A stretch of DNA of 39,029 nt. Origin: Bacteroidaceae bacterium. GTDB taxonomy: Bacteria > Bacteroidota > Bacteroidia > Bacteroidales > Bacteroidaceae. The notes beneath the pieces are model-generated. The model saw only the letters and a list, made by a program, of their open reading frames with translations. It did not search any database and was not told where the DNA came from. The position numbers were made by a program, and so were the translations under genes. The stretch spans positions 1 through 39,029 of the forward strand of contig JAKSIS010000019.1 in the NCBI GenBank assembly GCA_024398665.1, written 5' to 3'. Below, piece after piece: positions 1 through 39,029 of this stretch (its first letter is position 1; every line of letters starts with the position of its first letter).

Positions 1-193
1 TCCTTCTTTCTGGTAATCTCAGTAACATCAAATGGCTTACCGTCAATGACATTATCTTGTTCCGAGAGGTGAAGCCTATGACAATAAATACAAGGATAAA
101 CCCCGGGAGGACGACAAATAGAGTGGCTGGGCTAAAGAGGACAAACTTGCAGCCAGAACGCATAGAACGGCATTTCCCTGAAAGTTTGCCGCA
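1..193. other. Left-edge region with coding-like debris, no intact gene
   Basis: No complete gene is visible. On the plus strand the frame from about 50 to the TAG at 119-121 reads LVPRGEAYDNKYKDKPREDDK, a lysine- and acid-rich tail with sensible codons. It continues past the stop as WAKEDKLAA in the same frame, as if a gene end had decayed. On the minus strand, positions 1-64 read EQDNVIDGKPFDVTEITRKK and run off the left edge. That frame has no ATG, GTG or TTG before an upstream in-frame stop near 139. Either stretch could be a remnant of a neighbouring gene, and I cannot name a family. Confidence 0.25.
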
Positions 194-8888: not shown

Positions 8889-10076
8889 ATGGAGAAACTT
8901 AACCAGACACAGTTGTCGGAACTGTTCGCTTCCGAGAGCGGAATGTCACGCGCAGCCGCCGAACAGTTCGTGAAGTCATTCTTTGACATCATTGCTGACA
9001 AGGTCATTTCGGACGGGCTTGTCAAAGTAAAGGGACTGGGCACTTTCAAACTGCTCCAGATGGAGGACCGTGAAAGTGTCAATGTCAATACCGGAGAGAG
9101 GTTCACCATAGCCGGTCACCAGAAGATTTCCTTCACCCCGGATGCCGTGCTGAAGGAGACTCTGAACCGTCCGTTCAGCGCATTTGAAACTGTAATCCTG
9201 TCCGATGAACAGGCTGCAGCTCTTGAAGCGATGGAAGAGGGTGGTGCCGCAGTTGTGGAGACAGTGACTGAACTTCCGGAAGAATCCGCAGCTCCGGTTG
9301 GAGAACCCGCTGCCGCTCCGGTTGAAGAGCCCGCTGCCGCTCCGGTTGAAGAACCCGCTGCCGCTCCGGTTGAAGAACCTGCTGCCGCTACGGTTGGAGA
9401 GCCCGCTGCCGGATCAGCCGCTGCAGAACCTGCTGGCCAGGTCCGTGAGATTACACAATCGCGCGGCAAGAGAATAACCCTGAAACTGCTGGTATGGATA
9501 ATTTCCATTGCGCTTGTACTTGGCCTGGCTTATGTGCTGTTCTGGCCGGTAATAGGCAGCCGCCTGCTGGCTGTAATGGACCACAATACTGTCAGGACTG
9601 ATGCCGCTGGGATTGAAGTACCTGAAATTGAACCTGTTGCTGCAATACCCGATACCGCTGTCACCATGCCCGTTACTGTAACTGAAACGCAGCAGGAAAC
9701 GCAGCAGGCCACGGCAAGCGCTCCGGAAGCTGCTCCTGCAGCTGCCGGTGAACCTGCAGAACGCAAGCCTTCCGTGCCTGAAACGCATCCGGCCGCTGCC
9801 GCCACCGCATCAGTACAGCAGGCGTTCAGGCTGAATCAGGCCGATGACGCACGTGATCTGTCCGAATTCACGGCAGCAGACACTGTCAGTTACCGTATGA
9901 CCGGAACGCTGGGCAGGCATGTCATTGAGAAGGGTGAAACCTTGACGATTATTGCAAAGCATACATACGGCACCAAGAAACTGTGGCCGTATCTTGCCGC
10001 ATACAACCATCTGGACAGTTCCAAGTCGCTCAAGGTAGGGGCGGTCATACTGATTCCCAAACTTGAACACAAATAG
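8889..10076 (+). CDS. Membrane-spanning HU / LysM fusion protein
   Basis: 395 residues in four parts. Residues 1-95 form an HU domain (AAEQFVKSFFDIIADKVISDGLVKVKGLGTFKL, NVNTGERF). Residues about 130-185 are a low-complexity linker made of eight-residue repeats of the type PAAAPVEE. Residues about 199-222 form one hydrophobic membrane segment (LLVWIISIALVLGLAYVLFWPVIG). A second Ala/Pro/Thr-rich linker leads to a C-terminal LysM domain at about 344-393 (HVIEKGETLTIIAKHTYGTKKLWPYLAAYN...LKVGAVILIPKL). The expected topology is HU in the cytoplasm and LysM in the periplasm on peptidoglycan, which would tether DNA to the cell wall. It shares an operon with ftsY, rimO and a separate HU. The domains are seen; the tether role is inferred. 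Confidence 0.85.
   Translation: MEKLNQTQLSELFASESGMSRAAAEQFVKSFFDIIADKVISDGLVKVKGLGTFKLLQMEDRESVNVNTGERFTIAGHQKISFTPDAVLKETLNRPFSAFETVILSDEQAAALEAMEEGGAAVVETVTELPEESAAPVGEPAAAPVEEPAAAPVEEPAAAPVEEPAAATVGEPAAGSAAAEPAGQVREITQSRGKRITLKLLVWIISIALVLGLAYVLFWPVIGSRLLAVMDHNTVRTDAAGIEVPEIEPVAAIPDTAVTMPVTVTETQQETQQATASAPEAAPAAAGEPAERKPSVPETHPAAAATASVQQAFRLNQADDARDLSEFTAADTVSYRMTGTLGRHVIEKGETLTIIAKHTYGTKKLWPYLAAYNHLDSSKSLKVGAVILIPKLEHK
9288..9411 (+). repeat. 24-bp in-frame tandem repeat encoding PAAAPVEE
   Basis: About five imperfect 24-base units (GCTGCCGCTCCGGTTGAAGA type) lie head to tail inside the HU/LysM gene. They keep the reading frame and differ at wobble sites, with GGAGAA replacing GAAGAA in the outer units. 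Slippage here would lengthen or shorten the cytoplasmic linker by eight residues per unit. Confidence 0.85.
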
Positions 10077-13158: not shown

Positions 13159-14145
13159 ATGACATTTGCAAACAGCGCATATCTGCTACTTCTGCTGCTT
13201 ATCATACCGGCTGTGGTCTGGTATGTGATGAAGGGCCGCAAGAGGAGGGCTTCAATATCGGTTCCTTCCACCGGCATGTTCGCCGCAGTGGGGAAAAGCT
13301 GGAAATGCTATCTTATACACCTGCCTTTCATTCTGGAAATGCTGGCATTCGCCATGCTTGCCGTAATTCTTGCACGTCCCCAGACAACTGACAGGTGGCA
13401 GGATACTGAAATTGAGGGAATTGACATAATGATGTGTGTCGACGTTTCGACCAGCATGCTGGCGCAGGACCTCAAGCCCAACCGTCTTGAGGCGGCAAAG
13501 TCAGTTGCGGCCGAATTCATCAACGGACGTCCCAACGACAACATCGGACTCTCCATTTTTGCCGGTGAGGCGTTCACCCAGTGTCCTATGACTGTTGACC
13601 ATGCAGTTCTTCTGAACATGTTCAATTCCGTAAGCAGCGACATTGCCGCCAGGGGTATCATTGATGACGGAACCGCCATAGGTATGGGTCTTGCCAACGC
13701 AATAAGCCGTCTCAAGGACAGTCAGGCCAAGTCAAAGGTGATAATACTGCTTACTGACGGTTCGAACAACCGCGGTGAGATTTCGCCGCTGACGGCCGCC
13801 GATATGGCAAAGAGTTTCGGAATAAGGGTATATACAATAGGTGTGGGTACAAACGGCACGGCTCCGTATCCGTATGGAGGTACAACAGTCAATATGGCCG
13901 TTGAAATTGATGAGGATGTCCTGCGTCAGATTGCCGCCACTGCAAACGGCCAGTATTACCGTGCCACCAGCAACAGCAAACTGAAGGAGGTCTATGAGGA
14001 GATTGACAAACTTGAGCGTACAAAACTGCAGGTCAAGGAATTCAGCAGAAACCAGGAGGAATACCAGCCTTTTGCGCTGGTGCTGCTGCTCAGCCTGCTG
14101 GGCATAGTGCTTCTCAGGCAGACAGTACTTAGAACAATACCTTAA
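13159..14145 (+). CDS. batA: BatA, membrane-anchored von Willebrand A protein
   Basis: 328 residues from the ATG at 13159. An in-frame GTG at 13153 would add two residues; I prefer the ATG because the family begins close to the first membrane segment. Two N-terminal membrane segments (AYLLLLLLIIPAVVWYVM; LPFILEMLAFAMLAVILARP) are followed by a VWA domain with the MIDAS motif DVSTSMLAQD, a threonine site in GTAIGMGLANAI, and ILLTDGSNN. A last membrane segment is at the C-terminus (FALVLLLSLLGIVLL). In Bacteroides fragilis the bat genes were linked to aerotolerance. The VWA domain faces the periplasm by topology. Confidence 0.93.
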   Translation: MTFANSAYLLLLLLIIPAVVWYVMKGRKRRASISVPSTGMFAAVGKSWKCYLIHLPFILEMLAFAMLAVILARPQTTDRWQDTEIEGIDIMMCVDVSTSMLAQDLKPNRLEAAKSVAAEFINGRPNDNIGLSIFAGEAFTQCPMTVDHAVLLNMFNSVSSDIAARGIIDDGTAIGMGLANAISRLKDSQAKSKVIILLTDGSNNRGEISPLTAADMAKSFGIRVYTIGVGTNGTAPYPYGGTTVNMAVEIDEDVLRQIAATANGQYYRATSNSKLKEVYEEIDKLERTKLQVKEFSRNQEEYQPFALVLLLSLLGIVLLRQTVLRTIP

Positions 14146-14157
14146 AGAAAGACAGTC

Positions 14158-15198
14158 ATGTTCAAACTGAATGATCCGCAATATCTGTATCTGCTGCTGG
14201 CGCTTCCGCTGCTGGTTGCACTTCACATATTTTCGAACATACGTCACCGCCGCCGTCTGAAGGAATACGGTGACCCTGAACTGATAGGAAGACTGATGCC
14301 TCTTGCATCGGACTCAAGACGCAGACTGAAATTCTGGCTGCTTGCGGCCGGGTATGCGTTTGCCTGCCTTCTGCTGGCCAGACCGCAGTTCGGGTCCAAG
14401 CAGGAAACGGTAACCCGCAAGGGAATTGAGACCGTCATTGCGCTTGACATATCGAATTCAATGATGGCCGATGATGTCCAGCCCAACCGTCTGGCAAAGT
14501 CCAAACGGATCATTTCCAATCTTGTAGACCAGTTCAAGGATGACAAGATAGGGCTTATAGTGTTTGCCGGCGACGCTTTTGTCCAGCTGCCTATTACCAG
14601 TGACTTCATTTCAGCCAAGGTGTTTTTGAACACCATTTCGCCGGCGCTCATTTCCCGACAGGGTACTGACATCAGGACTGCAATAGAACTGGCTGAACGC
14701 AGTTTCACCCCGAATGACGGAGTGGGCAAGGCCATAATTGTGATAACTGACGGCGAAGACTTTGAGGGCGGTGCGGTTGAAGCGGCCCAGGCTGCCGCAG
14801 AAAAGGGTTTCATTGTATATGTGCTTGGCGTAGGTCTGCCCACAGGTACGCCCATTCCCGGAGAACGCAGCGGTGAATTCCGCAAGGACAAGGACGGACA
14901 GGTGGTCGTGACCAGACTGAACGAGAGCATGTGCCGTGACATAGCTGCGGCAGGCAAGGGCGCATACTTCTATGTGGACAACAGCAATGCCGCCGAGAAG
15001 GCGCTGCAGAAGGAGATTGACAAACTGGCGAAGGCCGATGTCGAGACCACCGTATATACTGATTTTGATGAACAGTTCCAGATAATCGCGTGGATAATTC
15101 TGGTGCTTCTGGTACTTGAAATCATTGTGGCGGAAAGCCGCAGTACCAGGATGAAGCGCATCAGGCTGTTCAGAACCGATGAAGAAAGGAAGAAATGA
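14158..15198 (+). CDS. batB: BatB, membrane-anchored von Willebrand A protein
   Basis: 346 residues. Same layout as BatA: membrane segment YLYLLLALPLLVALHIF, a basic loop (RHRRRLKEYGD), a second segment ending LLLARPQFG, and a VWA domain with MIDAS DISNSMMADD, TDIRTAIELAE and VITDGEDFEGG. A C-terminal membrane helix (IIAWIILVLLVLEIIVA) and a basic tail follow. The GEDFEGG loop is a BatB marker that BatA lacks. It starts 12 bases after batA and overlaps batC by four bases (ATGA). It probably forms a complex with BatA and the TPR proteins BatC and BatE. Confidence 0.94.
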   Translation: MFKLNDPQYLYLLLALPLLVALHIFSNIRHRRRLKEYGDPELIGRLMPLASDSRRRLKFWLLAAGYAFACLLLARPQFGSKQETVTRKGIETVIALDISNSMMADDVQPNRLAKSKRIISNLVDQFKDDKIGLIVFAGDAFVQLPITSDFISAKVFLNTISPALISRQGTDIRTAIELAERSFTPNDGVGKAIIVITDGEDFEGGAVEAAQAAAEKGFIVYVLGVGLPTGTPIPGERSGEFRKDKDGQVVVTRLNESMCRDIAAAGKGAYFYVDNSNAAEKALQKEIDKLAKADVETTVYTDFDEQFQIIAWIILVLLVLEIIVAESRSTRMKRIRLFRTDEERKK

Positions 15199-28572: not shown

Positions 28573-28624
28573 AAAAAAGTTGCACAAAACGCATACGATT
28601 CGCGTTTTGTGCAACTTTTTTTGT
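28573..28624. terminator. Very strong terminator after htpG
   Basis: A perfect 20-base stem: AAAAAAGTTGCACAAAACGC (28573-28592) and its complement (28602-28621), with a nine-base loop and T/A runs on either side. It can stop transcription in both directions. Confidence 0.95.
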
Positions 28625-33758: not shown

Positions 33759-35987
33759 ATGAAGAAAACAGCATTTCTGGCACTGGCTGTCATGGTATCG
33801 GCATTGTCTTATGCCGGCACCCCGCAGTCCAGACTTACAGCCAACGACAAAAAGATCAATGCGATAATCGCAAAGATGACACTTGAGGAAAAGGTGCAGA
33901 TGCTCCACAGCAAGACCATAATGTCTTCTGAGGGCGTCCCGTCGCAGGGTATTCAGGAGATAAGGTATGCCGACGGTCCGTTCGGCATACGTGATGAGGT
34001 TGGAGACGGTTTCCGCCCCATGAACTGGACAACTGATTCGGCCACCTATTTCCCTACCGGTTCGGCACTTGCCGCAACCTGGTCGCCCGAACTGGCATAC
34101 CGCTACGGTCATGGCATGGGCGTGGAGGGCCGCAAACGCGGCAAGGATGTCATACTGGGTCCGGCAATCAACATACAGCGCCTGCCTGTCGGAGGCCGCA
34201 CGTATGAGTATCTGTCTGAAGATCCGTTCCTTGCGGCTGCACTGGCTGTTGAATACACAAAGGGGTCTCAGGATGCCGGAACTGCAGTCTGCGTGAAGCA
34301 TTTCGCACTGAACAACCAGGAAACGAACCGCGGCAGCGTGAATGTGATTGCCGATGAACGCACCATGCGTGAACTCTACCTGAAGCCTTTTGAGGCCGCT
34401 GTCACGAAGGGCGGCGCAATGGTGGTTATGCCGGCTTACAATAAGGTGAACGGCTACTACTGCTCGGAGAACAACCATCTGCTGAATGAGATTCTGCGTG
34501 GTGACTGGGGATTCAAGGGATTCACCGTATCGGACTGGGGCGGAACGCACAGCACCGTAGGCGCAGCAATGGGCGGACTGAATGTGCAGATGACCGGCGA
34601 CAACTATTTCGGCAAGGCCCTGATTGATTCGGTCAATGCCGGAATTGTACCGATGAGCGTCATTGACAGCAAGGTTCGCGAACTGCTTCGCGTGCGTTTC
34701 GCAATTAAAGCCGTTCCTGCCGATGTCGCCAACCAGAGCACTGCCAGCCAGCCTGAAAGCCGCCGGACAGCGTATGACGTTGCCACAAAGTCAGTTGTCC
34801 TGCTCAAGAATGAAGGCGGCGTGCTGCCCATAAAGCCAAGTGTGAAGAAGATCGCTGTCATCGGACACAATGCCGTTGCACTGACTGCACGCGGCGGCGT
34901 GGGCGCCGGTGTCAAGGCTCCTTATGAAATCACTCCGCTGCAGGGTATTCAGAACCGTGCCGGCAATGTCACTGTAACCTATGCTGAGGGCTATACTCTG
35001 CCCCAGACCGGCGGTTGGGGACGCCAGCAGGCTGCCGCTCCGTCAATGGACCTGGATCTTATGGTCCAGGCAATAAAGGCTGCAAGTGAGGCCGATATGG
35101 TCATATACGTATGCGGAACCAGCAAGAGCATTGAAACTGAAGGAAGTGACCGCAGCGACATAAAGCTGCCGCTTGGTCAGGAGGAACTGATTGCTGCCAT
35201 ATCGGCAGTGAATCCGAACATCGCGACGGTGATAATAAGCGGCGGTCCGTGTGATTTGCAGAAACTGGACAAGTATTCACCCGCTATCGTTCAGGGCTGG
35301 TGGAACGGTCTTGAAGGCGGAAACGCACTGGCTGACATACTGTTCGGCAAGATTGCACCGTCAGGAAAGCTGCCGTTCACCTTCCCCATCAGACTTGAGG
35401 ATTCACCTGCATACGCCATGGGCAATTTCCCGCAGCGTTCGACCGCATCGGCCGGTAACGGTGACCTGTTCACAAACATGTACCGTCAGGACCTGGGCGG
35501 CAACCGCAACGCCGCACGCACCAATACCGTTCCCGATGCCGAATACAGTGAAAAGCTGCTTGTAGGCTACCGCTGGTTCGACACCAAGGAGAAACCTGTC
35601 ATGTACGCATTCGGTCACGGTCTGTCATATGTTGACTTCAACTACGGTACGGCAAAGGCGAACAAGTCCAGCTACAAGGCAAAGGATGTCATCAAGGTCA
35701 CTTTCAATCTGACCAATGAAGGTACAATGGAGGCCGATGAAGTGGCCCAGCTGTATGTCCATTACACTGACTCGAAGATTGAACGTCCCTATAAGGAACT
35801 GAAAGCCTTCAAGCGCGTTACAGTTGGTGCAGGCCAGACCGCTCAGGTTACTCTTGAGGTTCCTGTCATGGAACTCCGTTATTGGGACGAGTCTGTAAAC
35901 GGCTGGGTTCTTGAGGGAGGCAGCATTGAACTGATGATTGGCTCTGCATCGGATGATATCCGTCAGAGTGTCACAGTGAACATTTGA
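33759..35987 (+). CDS. GH3 beta-glucosidase-type glycoside hydrolase
   Basis: 742 residues. A signal peptide (KKTAFLALAVMVSALSYA) predicts periplasmic export. The GH3 N-terminal barrel has YADGPFGIR, GPAINIQRLPVGGRTYEYLSEDP, KHFALNNQETNR and nucleophile D259 in FTVSDWGG. The C-terminal alpha/beta sandwich has VVLLKNEGGVLPI and the stretch CGTSKSIETEGSDRSDIKLP, which supplies the usual acid/base glutamate. An FnIII-like domain (VTFNLTNEGTMEADEVAQLYVHY) closes the protein, and PA14 is absent. It is likely an exo-acting beta-glucosidase or beta-xylosidase that finishes oligosaccharides released by the GH9 lipoprotein, with which it is surely co-transcribed. No SusC/SusD pair is in the window. 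Confidence 0.93.
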   Translation: MKKTAFLALAVMVSALSYAGTPQSRLTANDKKINAIIAKMTLEEKVQMLHSKTIMSSEGVPSQGIQEIRYADGPFGIRDEVGDGFRPMNWTTDSATYFPTGSALAATWSPELAYRYGHGMGVEGRKRGKDVILGPAINIQRLPVGGRTYEYLSEDPFLAAALAVEYTKGSQDAGTAVCVKHFALNNQETNRGSVNVIADERTMRELYLKPFEAAVTKGGAMVVMPAYNKVNGYYCSENNHLLNEILRGDWGFKGFTVSDWGGTHSTVGAAMGGLNVQMTGDNYFGKALIDSVNAGIVPMSVIDSKVRELLRVRFAIKAVPADVANQSTASQPESRRTAYDVATKSVVLLKNEGGVLPIKPSVKKIAVIGHNAVALTARGGVGAGVKAPYEITPLQGIQNRAGNVTVTYAEGYTLPQTGGWGRQQAAAPSMDLDLMVQAIKAASEADMVIYVCGTSKSIETEGSDRSDIKLPLGQEELIAAISAVNPNIATVIISGGPCDLQKLDKYSPAIVQGWWNGLEGGNALADILFGKIAPSGKLPFTFPIRLEDSPAYAMGNFPQRSTASAGNGDLFTNMYRQDLGGNRNAARTNTVPDAEYSEKLLVGYRWFDTKEKPVMYAFGHGLSYVDFNYGTAKANKSSYKAKDVIKVTFNLTNEGTMEADEVAQLYVHYTDSKIERPYKELKAFKRVTVGAGQTAQVTLEVPVMELRYWDESVNGWVLEGGSIELMIGSASDDIRQSVTVNI

Positions 35988-36078: not shown

Positions 36079-36155
36079 GGTTCCGTAGCTTAACTGAATA
36101 GAGCATCTGACTACGGATCAGAAGGTTCCGGGTTTGAATCCCGGCGGAATCACCA
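36079..36155 (+). tRNA. tRNA-Arg(ACG)
   Basis: 77 bases with the CCA encoded. The acceptor stem GGTTCCG pairs with CGGAATC (one G-T). The D arm is GCTT...GAGC, and the anticodon stem TCTGA/TCAGA holds the loop CTACGGA with anticodon ACG, read as ICG after deamination. The T arm CCGGG-TTTGAAT-CCCGG is perfect. It reads CGU/CGC/CGA arginine codons. Its 3' end is a classic integration target, and a tyrosine recombinase end lies at the right edge. Confidence 0.97.
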
Positions 36156-36189: not shown

Positions 36190-36480
36190 AATTTCCAAAG
36201 CCCGAAAAAGGTACCTGTTTGGGCTCAGTGGAAATATAGTAGGTGCGTAAAACTTTTTGGACGCGCTTTCGTGGCTTTCGCCAAAGTGGGATGCAAACAT
36301 ATGGTTTCTGCTTCGTGTAGGGCATATCATTGCCGCTGACCCCTTTATTCCAGCGGTGTCGGTGGCAATCATCCTGGTTAGAACGCTCTGAGAGCAGGTT
36401 CACGCCACCCAGCTTGGCGAAAAGATTCTGTTGGATCTGGAAACTGATCTGTATAGGAAATTAATTCTATCTGTCCAATC
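36190..36480. other. Non-coding stretch after tRNA-Arg
   Basis: I find no gene here. Short minus-strand frames (for example one containing NDMPYTKQKPYVCIPLWRKP, about 36240-36340) have plausible codons in part but match nothing I know. A direct copy of the tRNA 3' end, as expected for an attachment site, was not found in the rest of the window. Confidence 0.5.
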
Positions 36481-36580
36481 AACAGTTCTACATTCATATA
36501 CGTGTGATATACGTGATATCCGTGTGCTTGAACAGTTCTACATTCATATACGTGTGATATTCGTGATATCCGTGTGCTTG
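36481..36580 (+). repeat. 50-bp tandem duplication beside module A
   Basis: Two adjacent 50-base units, 36481-36530 and 36531-36580, differ at one base (A at 36511, T at 36561). Each begins AACAGTTCTACATTCATATA and ends CCGTGTGCTTG, and contains the nested repeat CGTGTGATAT/CGTGATATC. The second unit runs directly into the palindromic module at 36579. Confidence 0.95.
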
Positions 36581-36714
36581 CCAATAATGCATCTGGAAGC
36601 CTTAAAACGGCATTTGTTTGCATTATTGGCATGCAATTTGCCGTTTTCAGCCGATTTGCTTGCCAATACTGCACATAATCGAGCCTACAGGCAATATGGC
36701 TGCAATATTGGCAA
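36579..36714 (+). repeat. Palindromic module A (136 bp)
   Basis: First palindrome: perfect 12-base arms TGCCAATAATGC / GCATTATTGGCA (36579-36590, 36620-36631). Second palindrome: 14-base arms TTGCCAATACTGCA / TGCAATATTGGCAA (36660-36673, 36701-36714) with one mismatch. The gap between them is 28 bases. A further nine-base pair AAAACGGCA / TGCCGTTTT (36604-36612, 36639-36647) offers an alternative fold. The whole module recurs inverted at 38709-38844. Confidence 0.9.
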
Positions 36715-36770
36715 CTATTTCTTCCTCCCCAGCCTATTTTTACACTGAGCCCAGACATGGCACACCTTGA

Positions 36771-37145
36771 CAGTTGCAGCAGCTTGATGTTCACCGGCGG
36801 GCACTTGCAGCATGGAGAACCATTTCTTCTGAAGAGCAGCGCCAATGGAATGTCTATGCTCTGGATGTTCCGTCTCACAGACCGCCGTATGACAATGATA
36901 ATCACATCACCGGACACAACCTGTTCGTCAGCGCATACAGCAGGCTGAAACGTTCTTCGGATGCAAAAACAGCATGGACAGATGTGATTCGGACGGAAAA
37001 GATGGAAACTGATTCTTTTCCAGCTTACCATAGGAAATATGTTTCAAGACATGGGGATAGTTTGCTTTGGATTTTCTACATTCGCGCAGTTAAATTGCAA
37101 TTTACCGGTGCTAATATACCAAATCCAAGGCAAACCGGAAAGTAG
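36771..37145 (+). pseudogene. N-terminally truncated fragment of a hypothetical protein
   Basis: The frame opens right after a TGA at 36768-36770 and has no ATG start (first possible start TTG at 36774). It reads RRALAAWRTISSEEQRQWNVYALDVPSHRPPYDNDNHITGHNLFVSAYSRL, a pattern I know from uncharacterised Bacteroidales proteins (W..LS.EEQ..WN.YA, ISG.NLFVSAYH). After SAY the sequence no longer looks like that family. The beginning is missing and module A lies 56 bases upstream, so this is probably a relic. The family function is unknown. Confidence 0.5.
37060..37135. terminator. Inverted repeat downstream of the ATPase gene
   Basis: GTTTGCTTTGGATTT (37060-37074) and AAATCCAAGGCAAAC (37121-37135) pair over 15 bases with one G-T. 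The palindrome AAATTGCAATTT (37092-37103) sits between them. The structure begins 12 bases after the ATPase stop on the minus strand. It may end that transcript, though it has no clear T-run. Confidence 0.4.
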
Positions 37146-37146
37146 A

Positions 37147-38457
37147 TTATGAATTCAAAAGCTCATCAATCCCCTTCAACAGGAACTCCTCTATACCGAC
37201 ATACATGATGCCCGATTCGTCTGTCCAAGGAATGATGTCATCCTTGACCACCACAATCTTCTGGAACGAGTCATCCACACGCATCAAAGAATTAATCTCC
37301 TGCTCGCGCTTCTCTTTGCTGTCCACATTCAGAGCCGACTGGATATAAATTCGTTTGAAACCTTTGTTCACGATGAAATCAATCTCAAGTTGCGAGTGGA
37401 TGGTTTTGCCATCCCCTGTCTTCCAATGGTAAGGCACCACACCCACATCCACACGGAACCCTCGCGCTACCAGCTCATTATACAGCACATTTTCCATGAT
37501 GTGATTCTCTTCCTGCTGACGGAAATTCAGTCGCGCATTTCTCAGCCCTACATCCGAATAATAGTATTTCAGCGGAGTGCTGATATACGACCGCCCCTTG
37601 ACGTCATACCTCTGCGACTTACAGAGCAGATATGAGTCAACAAAATAGCCAAGATACAGGTCTACCGTATCGCTCTTGATCTTCAGTTTCTGTTCCGTAA
37701 GGAAAGTATTTGCCAACCGGCTTGGATTGGTCAGCGACCCCACAGCCGAAGCCGTAATGTCCAGCAGCGTCTCCAGCACACCCGTGTCAGCCTTTACTTT
37801 ATTGCGCTCAATCACATCGCGGATATAAGTCAGTTGGAAAAGATCCTGCAGATAACGCGCTTTCTCTTCGTGCGACGAGAGCTGCATCGCATACGGCATA
37901 CCGCCATAGTGCCAGAAGTCTCTCCATGCATATCGTTTCTCACCCTCGTATGCAGCATAGAACTCGTTGAATGTAAGTGGACAAACATGTATCTCATCGC
38001 CACGGTCACGAAACTCCGTCACTATGTCCTTCGACAACATCTTTGAGTTCGAGCCCGTAACATACACATCCACATTCGGCAACTTCATCAGTCCCAGCAG
38101 CACATCTACAAAACCAATCAACTCTCCCGATTCAGCTGGCAGATAAGGATTTGGGATGCTTTCCACCTTCTGGATTTCATCCAGTAGCACATAGTACTTT
38201 CTGCGCTTGTTCTTGACTAGTTCACGGATGTATGCGTCCAGTTCCAGCGGATTGCGATATTTCGCATTGGCTGCTTCGTCCAGAGCCAAAATGATGATAT
38301 CTGTAGATTTGACACCTTCCTTCAGAAGATGTTCCACAAATAGTGTATTCAGCAAAAAAGACTTACCACAACGTCTCAAACCGGTAACCACCTTAATCTT
38401 TCCGTTCCATTTCTTTGCAGTAAGCTGCTTCAAATATCTGTCGCGGTTGATAATCAT
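37147..38457 (-). CDS. AAA-family ATPase with C-terminal DUF4143 domain
   Basis: 436 residues from the ATG at 38457 (MIINRDRYLKQLTAKKWNGKIKVVTGLRRCGKSFLLNTLF). The frame extends to 38511, but the added residues look non-coding. An AAA_14-type ATPase has Walker A GLRRCGKS, Walker B YYVLLDEIQ and sensor VYVTGSNSKML. The C-terminal DUF4143 part has LEIDFIVNKGFKRIYIQSAL, similar to a PD-(D/E)xK nuclease core (E/D...D...Q-x-A). Such genes are frequent multi-copy accessory genes in Bacteroidota with no settled function; nuclease-type defence or mobile-element roles are possible. Base use is more A/T-rich than the housekeeping genes. It stands alone between two inverted palindromic modules. Confidence 0.88.
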   Translation of the reverse strand: MIINRDRYLKQLTAKKWNGKIKVVTGLRRCGKSFLLNTLFVEHLLKEGVKSTDIIILALDEAANAKYRNPLELDAYIRELVKNKRRKYYVLLDEIQKVESIPNPYLPAESGELIGFVDVLLGLMKLPNVDVYVTGSNSKMLSKDIVTEFRDRGDEIHVCPLTFNEFYAAYEGEKRYAWRDFWHYGGMPYAMQLSSHEEKARYLQDLFQLTYIRDVIERNKVKADTGVLETLLDITASAVGSLTNPSRLANTFLTEQKLKIKSDTVDLYLGYFVDSYLLCKSQRYDVKGRSYISTPLKYYYSDVGLRNARLNFRQQEENHIMENVLYNELVARGFRVDVGVVPYHWKTGDGKTIHSQLEIDFIVNKGFKRIYIQSALNVDSKEKREQEINSLMRVDDSFQKIVVVKDDIIPWTDESGIMYVGIEEFLLKGIDELLNS

Positions 38458-38569
38458 GCAGGGGATATTTAGATATAAATATACAATAATTTCCGCTTGC
38501 AAAGGTGGCAATTATTTCTCAAACAACAATCAACCAAGGGACATAAATGCATTTATTTGTGGGAAGAAC

Positions 38570-38700
38570 GCGTTTCTTACCCCTTTCCACAGAGCAGCAG
38601 GTGTTCAAGCTGACGCGCCATATCCATGTCTTGATGCTGCTCTCACCGCGGAAGCGTGGGTAACTTTTCCACAGATTGATCAATTCCAAGAGACATACAT
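38570..38700 (-). pseudogene. Fragment of an ECF RNA polymerase sigma factor
   Basis: The minus strand reads LLELINLWKSYPRFRGESSIKTWIWRVSLNTCCSVERGKKR. This is the region 2.3-2.4 pattern of Bacteroidota ECF sigma-70 factors (LWKS.P.FRGES...TWI.R.ALNT..S..RK.KR). The upstream part of region 2 and all of region 4 (the -35-binding domain) are missing. The frame continues to a stop at 38519 without sigma-like sequence. The similarity begins at about 38700, right at the inner border of palindromic module B (38704), so the module or a deletion cut the gene. It cannot make a working sigma factor. Confidence 0.75.
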
Positions 38701-38703
38701 TTC

Positions 38704-38844
38704 TTTGCTTGCCAATACTGCAACCAAAATGTCCGTAGGGCCAATCTTGTGCAATATTGGCAAGCAAATAGCCTGAAACGGGCAAAATCGTTGCCAATAC
38801 TTCAGCGAAATGTGTTTTTGAGCCTTCTGGCTGCAGTATTGGCA
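38704..38844 (-). repeat. Palindromic module B (inverted copy of module A)
   Basis: Outer palindrome: 14-base arms TGCCAATACTTCAG / CTGCAGTATTGGCA (38792-38805, 38831-38844) with one mismatch. Inner palindrome: 19-base arms TTTGCTTGCCAATACTGCA / TGCAATATTGGCAAGCAAA (38704-38722, 38750-38768) with one mismatch. Read on the minus strand from 38844 to 38709, it aligns to module A over 136 bases without gaps. By hand I count 102 identical positions, and the palindrome sizes (53, 28, 55) are the same. Confidence 0.9.
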
Positions 38845-38847
38845 CAA

Positions 38848-38909
38848 CAGCAGGAACATGGTTCTTATACGGCCCTAACAGCAGGAACATGGTTCTTATA
38901 CGACCCTAA
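38848..38909. repeat. 31-bp tandem duplication beside module B
   Basis: Two adjacent 31-base units, 38848-38878 and 38879-38909, differ at one base (GGCCC versus GACCC). Each begins CAGCAGGAACATGGTTCTTA. They abut the outer end of module B, as the 50-bp pair abuts module A. The two duplicated sequences are not related to each other. Confidence 0.95.
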
Positions 38910-38937
38910 AAATATCAGAAGTACTGTATCCTGACAA

Positions 38938-39029
38938 TCAATCGTCATCAAAAGTAATGTAACGTTCGAAAGTGTTAGTTGACTTGTGGCCTGAGCATTT
39001 CCTTACTTCTGCTTCTGTTGGGCATCTCA
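38938..39029 (-). CDS. C-terminal end of a tyrosine recombinase/integrase (partial)
   Basis: Only the last 29 codons are in the window; the rest lies beyond the right edge. They read EVRKCSGHKSTNTFERYITFDDD before the stop. SGHKS...TFERY carries the conserved GH (box II histidine region) and the active-site tyrosine close to the C-terminus, as in phage-type integrases and Bacteroidota mobile-element recombinases. It is probably the integrase of an element at this locus. Whether it belongs to the tRNA-Arg-linked region to its left or to sequence on its right cannot be decided here. Confidence 0.75.
   Translation of the reverse strand, partial: RCPTEAEVRKCSGHKSTNTFERYITFDDD

Follow-up and report, generated by a model that had tools for sequence, protein, structure and literature searches.

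Two inverted 136-bp modules (A and B) on one contig of a Bacteroidaceae bacterium genome (G000; the stretch of 39,029 nt considered is referred to as the window) are likely repeats akin to repetitive extragenic palindromic (REP) sequence doublets forming hairpins (REPINs) or bacterial interspersed mosaic elements (BIMEs), which would be mobilised by a cognate REP-associated tyrosine transposase (RAYT) encoded elsewhere, and which flank an accessory ATPase gene. The modules recur as dispersed repeats, their stems covary, they are associated with RAYT genes, and their arm sequences vary with the RAYT branch. The features concerned are the following:

36579..36714, forward strand: module A, with hairpins at 36579-36631 and 36661-36713 and a 29-bp spacer, assigned to the A subfamily (repeat search, arm-pattern search and copies)
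38709..38844, reverse strand: module B, two hairpins (38792-38844 and 38710-38762) in opposite orientation, assigned to the B subfamily with kin on contigs C56, C38 and C73 (repeat search, arm-pattern search and copies)
37147..38457, reverse strand: AAA_14/DUF4143 ATPase gene, an open frame (G000:C11:37147-38457; matches to Pfam AAA_14 and DUF4143)

Layout, fold and copies of the modules

Repeat search of the window retrieved one inverted pair (36579-36714 and 38709-38844), with members of 136 nt each that are 75% complementary (102 of 136 positions, without gaps) and 1994 nt apart, the same coordinates and count as in the original prediction for this DNA. Arms of the type then claimed, TGCCAATAnTGCA, indeed start at positions 36579, 36619, 36661, and 36701 in module A and at positions 38710, 38750, 38792, and 38832 in module B, seven of the eight being exact and one carrying one mismatch. 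The double palindrome had been recognised correctly too, but its lengths are 53 + 29 + 53 instead of 53 + 28 + 55, a flanking T/A pair having been counted into the second palindrome. The period is thus 82 bp, and the arm-to-arm steps are 40, 42, and 40 bp in both modules, indicating a rigid spacing. A loose 13-base arm pattern (two mismatches) gave 10 matches in the window versus 4.9 expected, a number reached by four of 100 shuffles; this pattern alone is hardly above chance, and it is the paired layout that stands out.

Compared with dinucleotide shuffles, the single-stranded DNA fold of module A had a z value of -2.96 (two of 200 shuffles as good) and that of module B a z value of -3.79 (none of 200). 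The first arm pairs with the last arm in the best single-stranded fold of three out of four modules, and the two cores of a module resemble each other in neither the direct nor the inverted sense. Across 19 copies, 97.7% of the stem cells were paired and seven pairs displayed double-sided changes, values reached by none of 500 shuffles, with much of the variation stemming from three copies with other arms. A second palindrome, formed by core 1 and the spacer and interleaved with the first, occurs in the window (36601-36612 with 36639-36650) and in locus L209. This helix is not regarded as a general feature; it is strong in the A subfamily, being present in module A and in seven of the eight other A-type rows, was seen by eye in distant arrays, and was absent from module B and from the copies of C36, C56b, C10, and C60.

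In G000, the pattern TGCCAATA-N28-50-TATTGGCA gave 32 matches (none for the reversed control) and a BLAST search with module A 24 matches, some of them representing one place on both strands. The covariance-model search that had been suggested for finding further copies was productive, with 62 matches on both strands, corresponding to at least 27 distinct places. Eleven of 26 places (C35 left out) are found 1 kb or less from the end of a contig, a zone that makes up at most 8% of the genome; hence, assembly probably breaks at these repeats, and their actual copy number may be higher. Three arm types with nearly equal spacing were found, namely TGCCAATAnTGCA, TGACAACATTGCA (C56:67621 and C10:38630), and GCCAAACCTGCA (C27:7267 and C21:18232, the latter with one clear hairpin only). 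Among 301 genomes of the family, the exact arm pattern of the window matched 10, of which G000, G119, and G050 look real by eye; as the reversed control matched two genomes as well, no convincing copy of these exact arms was found outside the genus in this sample.

Association of the modules with RAYT genes

The best candidate for the cognate RAYT is encoded by G000:C60:6917-7939, which is flanked by modules with the same arms in direct orientation. The protein is predicted to be a RAYT-like HuH single-tyrosine (Y1) nuclease. H50, H52, and Y111 (the HuH motif and the catalytic tyrosine) were invariant in 68 aligned sequences, P0001 contains YVLRNP (Y---NP), and the predicted RAYT-like protein has the fold of the E. 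coli RAYT core. The NCBIfam model NF047646 (REP_Tyr_transpos) was matched at 39 bits, below its curated cut-off of 80, and it matched 27 of the 68 aligned sequences at E ≤ 0.01. For the C-terminal part alone, the predicted fold (pLDDT 69.7, pTM 0.39) was too weak for a structure search, and no PDB sequence was retrieved with profile A3 at E ≤ 0.1. The protein is filed here as RAYT-like, and the repeats as REPIN-like in their working, not as canonical REPs.

RAYT relatives were obtained from a scan of GTDB genomes (the best 80 of 152, with titles naming Bacteroidales, Bacteroidia, Bacteroidaceae, Prevotellaceae or Candidatus Colenecus). A scan for structure only retrieved double palindromes at 1 kb or less from the RAYT gene in 47 of the 80 loci, with 145 matches in 157 kb near RAYT versus five in 389 kb far from it, and periods of 82 (43 matches), 83 (84), 84 (12), and 93 bp (six, in one locus). 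In G000, cognate repeats lie beside the RAYT genes of C60, C48, and C66, which is the arrangement of a REPtron. Furthermore, arm sequence tracks RAYT identity across branches (r 0.74 on 42 RAYTs), which suggests that the arms are probably a specificity code, each RAYT branch having its own arm sequence; the fixed spacing is probably an architecture common to these branches. Similarly, 23 of 27 dispersed modules in seven relatives had, by eye, the arm type of their own RAYT, in a sample that leans towards the covariance model, the places having been picked from its best matches. Within the genus, modules were present in 18 of 19 genomes with a RAYT match at E ≤ 1e-20 versus six of 18 without, and in 21 of 26 versus three of 11 at E ≤ 1e-3. 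Beside the RAYT genes of L161, L179, and L207-L210, the hairpin unit of 82-84 bp was also seen in tandem arrays, and the RAYT gene of L190 lies beside an array with a unit of 93 bp.

Several observations weigh against the REPIN-like reading. At the foot of the hairpin, where known REPs carry GT[AG]G, none of the 19 modules has this tetranucleotide; RAYTs studied so far need GTAG to varying degrees (PMC8266576). Its equivalent on the other strand, C[CT]AC, is present in 16 of the 19, always in the same column of the hairpin 2 loop. P0001 remains under the Pfam and NCBIfam cut-offs. No double palindrome was found within 1 kb of RAYT in 33 of the 80 loci by the structure-only scan, and nine loci, mostly with arrays (L161, L179, L190, L200, L203, and L207-L210), supplied 90 of the 145 near matches by hand count, the remaining 55 being spread over the other 38 loci. 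Four of the 27 dispersed modules had other arm types; among the 23, the module of L256 is separated from its RAYT by some 5 kb, and the arms of L258 and L260 are mixed. This count leaves out G133 (six places), of which the RAYT flank was unread, and G297, G119, and G050 (five places), which were without a matched RAYT. The threshold of 1e-20 was set after the data were seen, the six genomes with modules despite no strong RAYT match include G288 (five matches) and G050 (seven), and G175 has a RAYT without any module match. The covariance-model search scored at most 89 first-look candidates per genome. Common descent contributes to the arm/RAYT correspondence, the arm types of the dispersed modules and the co-occurrence alike, and the first and last of these would also follow from it. 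Finally, no movement of modules was seen in the single assemblies, nearly all of which are drafts.

According to the reading preferred here, the module would be a short non-autonomous element in which two different hairpins are set at a constant step of 82 bp; when single-stranded, it may be recognised by its cognate RAYT (candidate C60:6917-7939). Cutting by the enzyme would take place at the hairpin, probably while replication leaves the element single-stranded, and the enzyme would help copies to excise, insert or spread. Cleavage takes place beside the hairpin in described systems, at CT in E. coli and Stenotrophomonas and at CT and CA in Marinomonas (PMC8266576). We infer such recognition, cutting and mobilisation, as well as an independent arrival of A and B, whereby two copies of different subfamilies would have come to flank the ATPase gene. 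A pair of REP/BIME-like elements was one of the options of the original prediction, and it is this option that is favoured by the many dispersed copies, by the covarying stems and by the repeats of like architecture that accompany RAYT genes. The accompanying suggestion that the fold and layout matter more than the sequence fits the comparison across RAYT branches.

Helicase-RAYT cassette, ATPase gene and surroundings

The RAYT gene lies downstream of a helicase gene in nine of 95 loci searched (some representing one place fetched twice). The helicase of L093, the one scanned, has PIF1 and HRDC domains, and that of L149 is in two pieces. This cassette is bounded by modules; its neighbours are an acetyl-CoA hydrolase-like gene on one side and an ABC transporter gene on the other (both named by eye). 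Among the loci in which the two flanks can be seen, it has one orientation in L150, L153, and L223 and the opposite one in L151, L152, and L155; with a single flank visible, L149 and L086 agree with the first orientation, and L148 shows neither flank. Parsimony by hand on a flanking-gene tree gave three flips, or two with weak nodes collapsed, and the apparent switch point lies, by eye, in the innermost arm of one sister pair. A third module, beside a methyltransferase-like gene, accompanies a larger rearrangement in L148 and L149. The gap between the miaB-like and methyltransferase-like genes contains a module in L155, and in L148 and L149 the module is on the methyltransferase side; the gap is without module in L150, L151, L153, and L223, and holds other sequence without module match in L152. 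This comparison fits an insertion that comprised slightly more than the module itself, with loss as the alternative.

In this one branch, RAYT, the Pif1-HRDC helicase and the inverted modules might constitute a DNA inversion system, in which the helicase would expose single strands and RAYT would cut and rejoin at the hairpins, so that the cassette, sometimes with its neighbours, flips. If true, a HuH single-tyrosine nuclease would be driving this switch, in place of a serine or tyrosine recombinase. We regard it as unlikely; the repeated inversion between species at one locus is compatible with it and equally with homologous recombination, which is the simplest cause of the flips.

Quite unlikely too is that the modules are recombination sites in general, inverted pairs letting the enclosed DNA flip through RAYT or homologous recombination and spread being secondary. 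Both orientations do occur at the cassette locus (three versus three), the inverted repeats formed by the modules on the left and right match at 83-95% in five of six loci, and L152 and L153, a sister pair (flanking gene 93% alike, support 1.0), differ in orientation. However, the majority of the modules read do not form inverted pairs at close distance, homologous recombination acting on repeats of 136 bp would account for the flips without a new mechanism, and L151 has the second orientation although its modules are unlike (57%).

It is improbable that the modules are mainly RNA or DNA-binding signals (terminators, attenuators or operator pairs on one helix face) multiplied by recombination alone. 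Their mostly intergenic position (by eye), a step of 82-84 bp close to eight helical turns and the conserved stems would suit such signals, but at Rfam gathering scores the window contained a tRNA alone and no family matching the modules, and neither the association with RAYT genes nor the arm/RAYT correspondence would be expected.

Least credible is a single transposable unit that has A and B as its ends and the ATPase gene as cargo and is moved by an outside enzyme, as the original prediction had also proposed. The inverted orientation, the intact gene enclosed and, in relatives, another two-gene cassette with inverted modules at its borders speak for it, as does the fact that, of the three DUF4143 genes of G000, two (C11:37147-38457 and C16:1097-2437) have a hairpin copy no more than about 0.6 kb away, which is treated here as chance. 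For the C16 gene, this copy is a lone hairpin at a distance of about 0.55 kb, and no module was found in the 8 kb fetched around the C19 gene. Judged by sequence, A and B are of different subfamilies and no matched pair: the nearest kin of A is C45:13939 (96.8% over 190 bp) and that of B is C56:67230 (95.8%), with more on C38 and C73, so each is closer to copies elsewhere than to the other (75%). The ATPase gene matches one place only in its own genome, its closest relative across 37 genomes of the genus being 49% identical and thus not near, and no module at E ≤ 0.1 was found in 11 loci fetched for relatives of the ATPase, which are mostly distant (flanks of at most about 1.5 kb). The near-identical ends and repeated cargo of a composite transposon are therefore lacking. 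In addition, module A sits inside a separate repeat of approximately 530 bp shared with C45. The ATPase gene is most likely a bystander.

Other features of the window are the following:

36222..36751, strand unassigned: wider repeated unit enclosing module A, with inverted GGCTCAGTG ends (second copy at G000:C45, partial copy at C78)
36481..36580, forward strand: two tandem 50-bp repeats immediately outside module A (repeat search)
38846..38907, forward strand: two tandem 31-bp repeats immediately outside module B, with similar sequence next to the C38 copy (repeat search and comparison)
140..190, forward strand: weak match to one hairpin of the module model (26.5 bits, E 3e-4), probably a decayed copy

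The wider unit is 99.7% identical over 309 bp and 96.8% over 190 bp to that of C45 (about 13900-14381), where GTTATCAT occurs on both sides, though within a tandem-repeat region. Ends of the GGCTCAGTG type also occur near the copies of C21:30279, C33, and C36, and in C50 without a module found. Between module A and the ATPase gene, a 76-bp imperfect palindrome (37060-37135) has a part (37093-37133) that is 90% like C73:493-533, just past the C73 module, and the open reading frame 36774-37145 has no Pfam match. On the reverse strand of 38937-39029, one frame resembles, by eye, the C-terminal end of a tyrosine recombinase; together with a tRNA gene (36079-36152, Rfam scan) it possibly marks an integration site. 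A gene farther upstream, at 33759-35987 and glycoside hydrolase-like as judged by eye, is 71-75% identical in seven relatives, the matches ending with the gene, before the tRNA. A short tandem repeat (9288-9435) and a 49-bp imperfect palindrome (28573-28621) lie elsewhere.

Relation to known systems and significance

Members of IS200/IS605 (IS608 and ISDra2) are insertion sequences with hairpins at their ends; unlike these, the modules form a dispersed repeat family without a gene. Like the REP doublets (REPINs) of Pseudomonas fluorescens (Bertels and Rainey 2011, PMC3116915), they are palindrome doublets, which may fold into one long hairpin, occur both dispersed and in tandem clusters, and are linked to RAYT. 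In contrast to those described there, either half alone already forms a palindrome (13-bp arms around a 27-nt core), and the two halves, whose cores are dissimilar, follow each other at a constant step of 82-84 bp. The HuH and Y---NP motifs are shared with TnpAREP/RAYT class 2 (Quentin et al. 2018, PMC6006769). Within that class, subclass 2.6 is mostly from Bacteroidetes and has 'atypical secondary structures' at its flanks, but its median length is 179 residues, whereas the RAYT-like proteins considered here mostly have 300-380; subclasses 2.1 and 2.3 have a large C-terminal domain and are without REPs, whereas many proteins here have cognate repeats. Proteins were sampled in that study with Pfam Y1_Tnp at E < 0.01, a threshold missed by two of the three relatives scanned alongside P0001. 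As in TIRYT/TIRtron (De Nocera et al. 2013, PMC3733652), a RAYT-like gene is bordered by repeats unrelated to the GTAG repeats; unlike their terminal inverted repeats, those found here are double hairpins, in direct orientation at C60 and in arrays elsewhere. Among the papers listed on RAYT repeats with helicase, inversion or Bacteroidales, a set with few subscription papers, no description of this arrangement was found.

With these modules, the biology of REPIN/RAYT systems would extend to a branch of Bacteroidales in which RAYT is long and the repeats are paired hairpins at a fixed step of 82-84 bp, the arms of which diversify with the enzyme. This would provide dozens of natural enzyme/substrate pairs for learning how a RAYT reads a hairpin, and the helicase-RAYT cassette, found in both orientations, may offer a direct route to testing the role of RAYT in its host.
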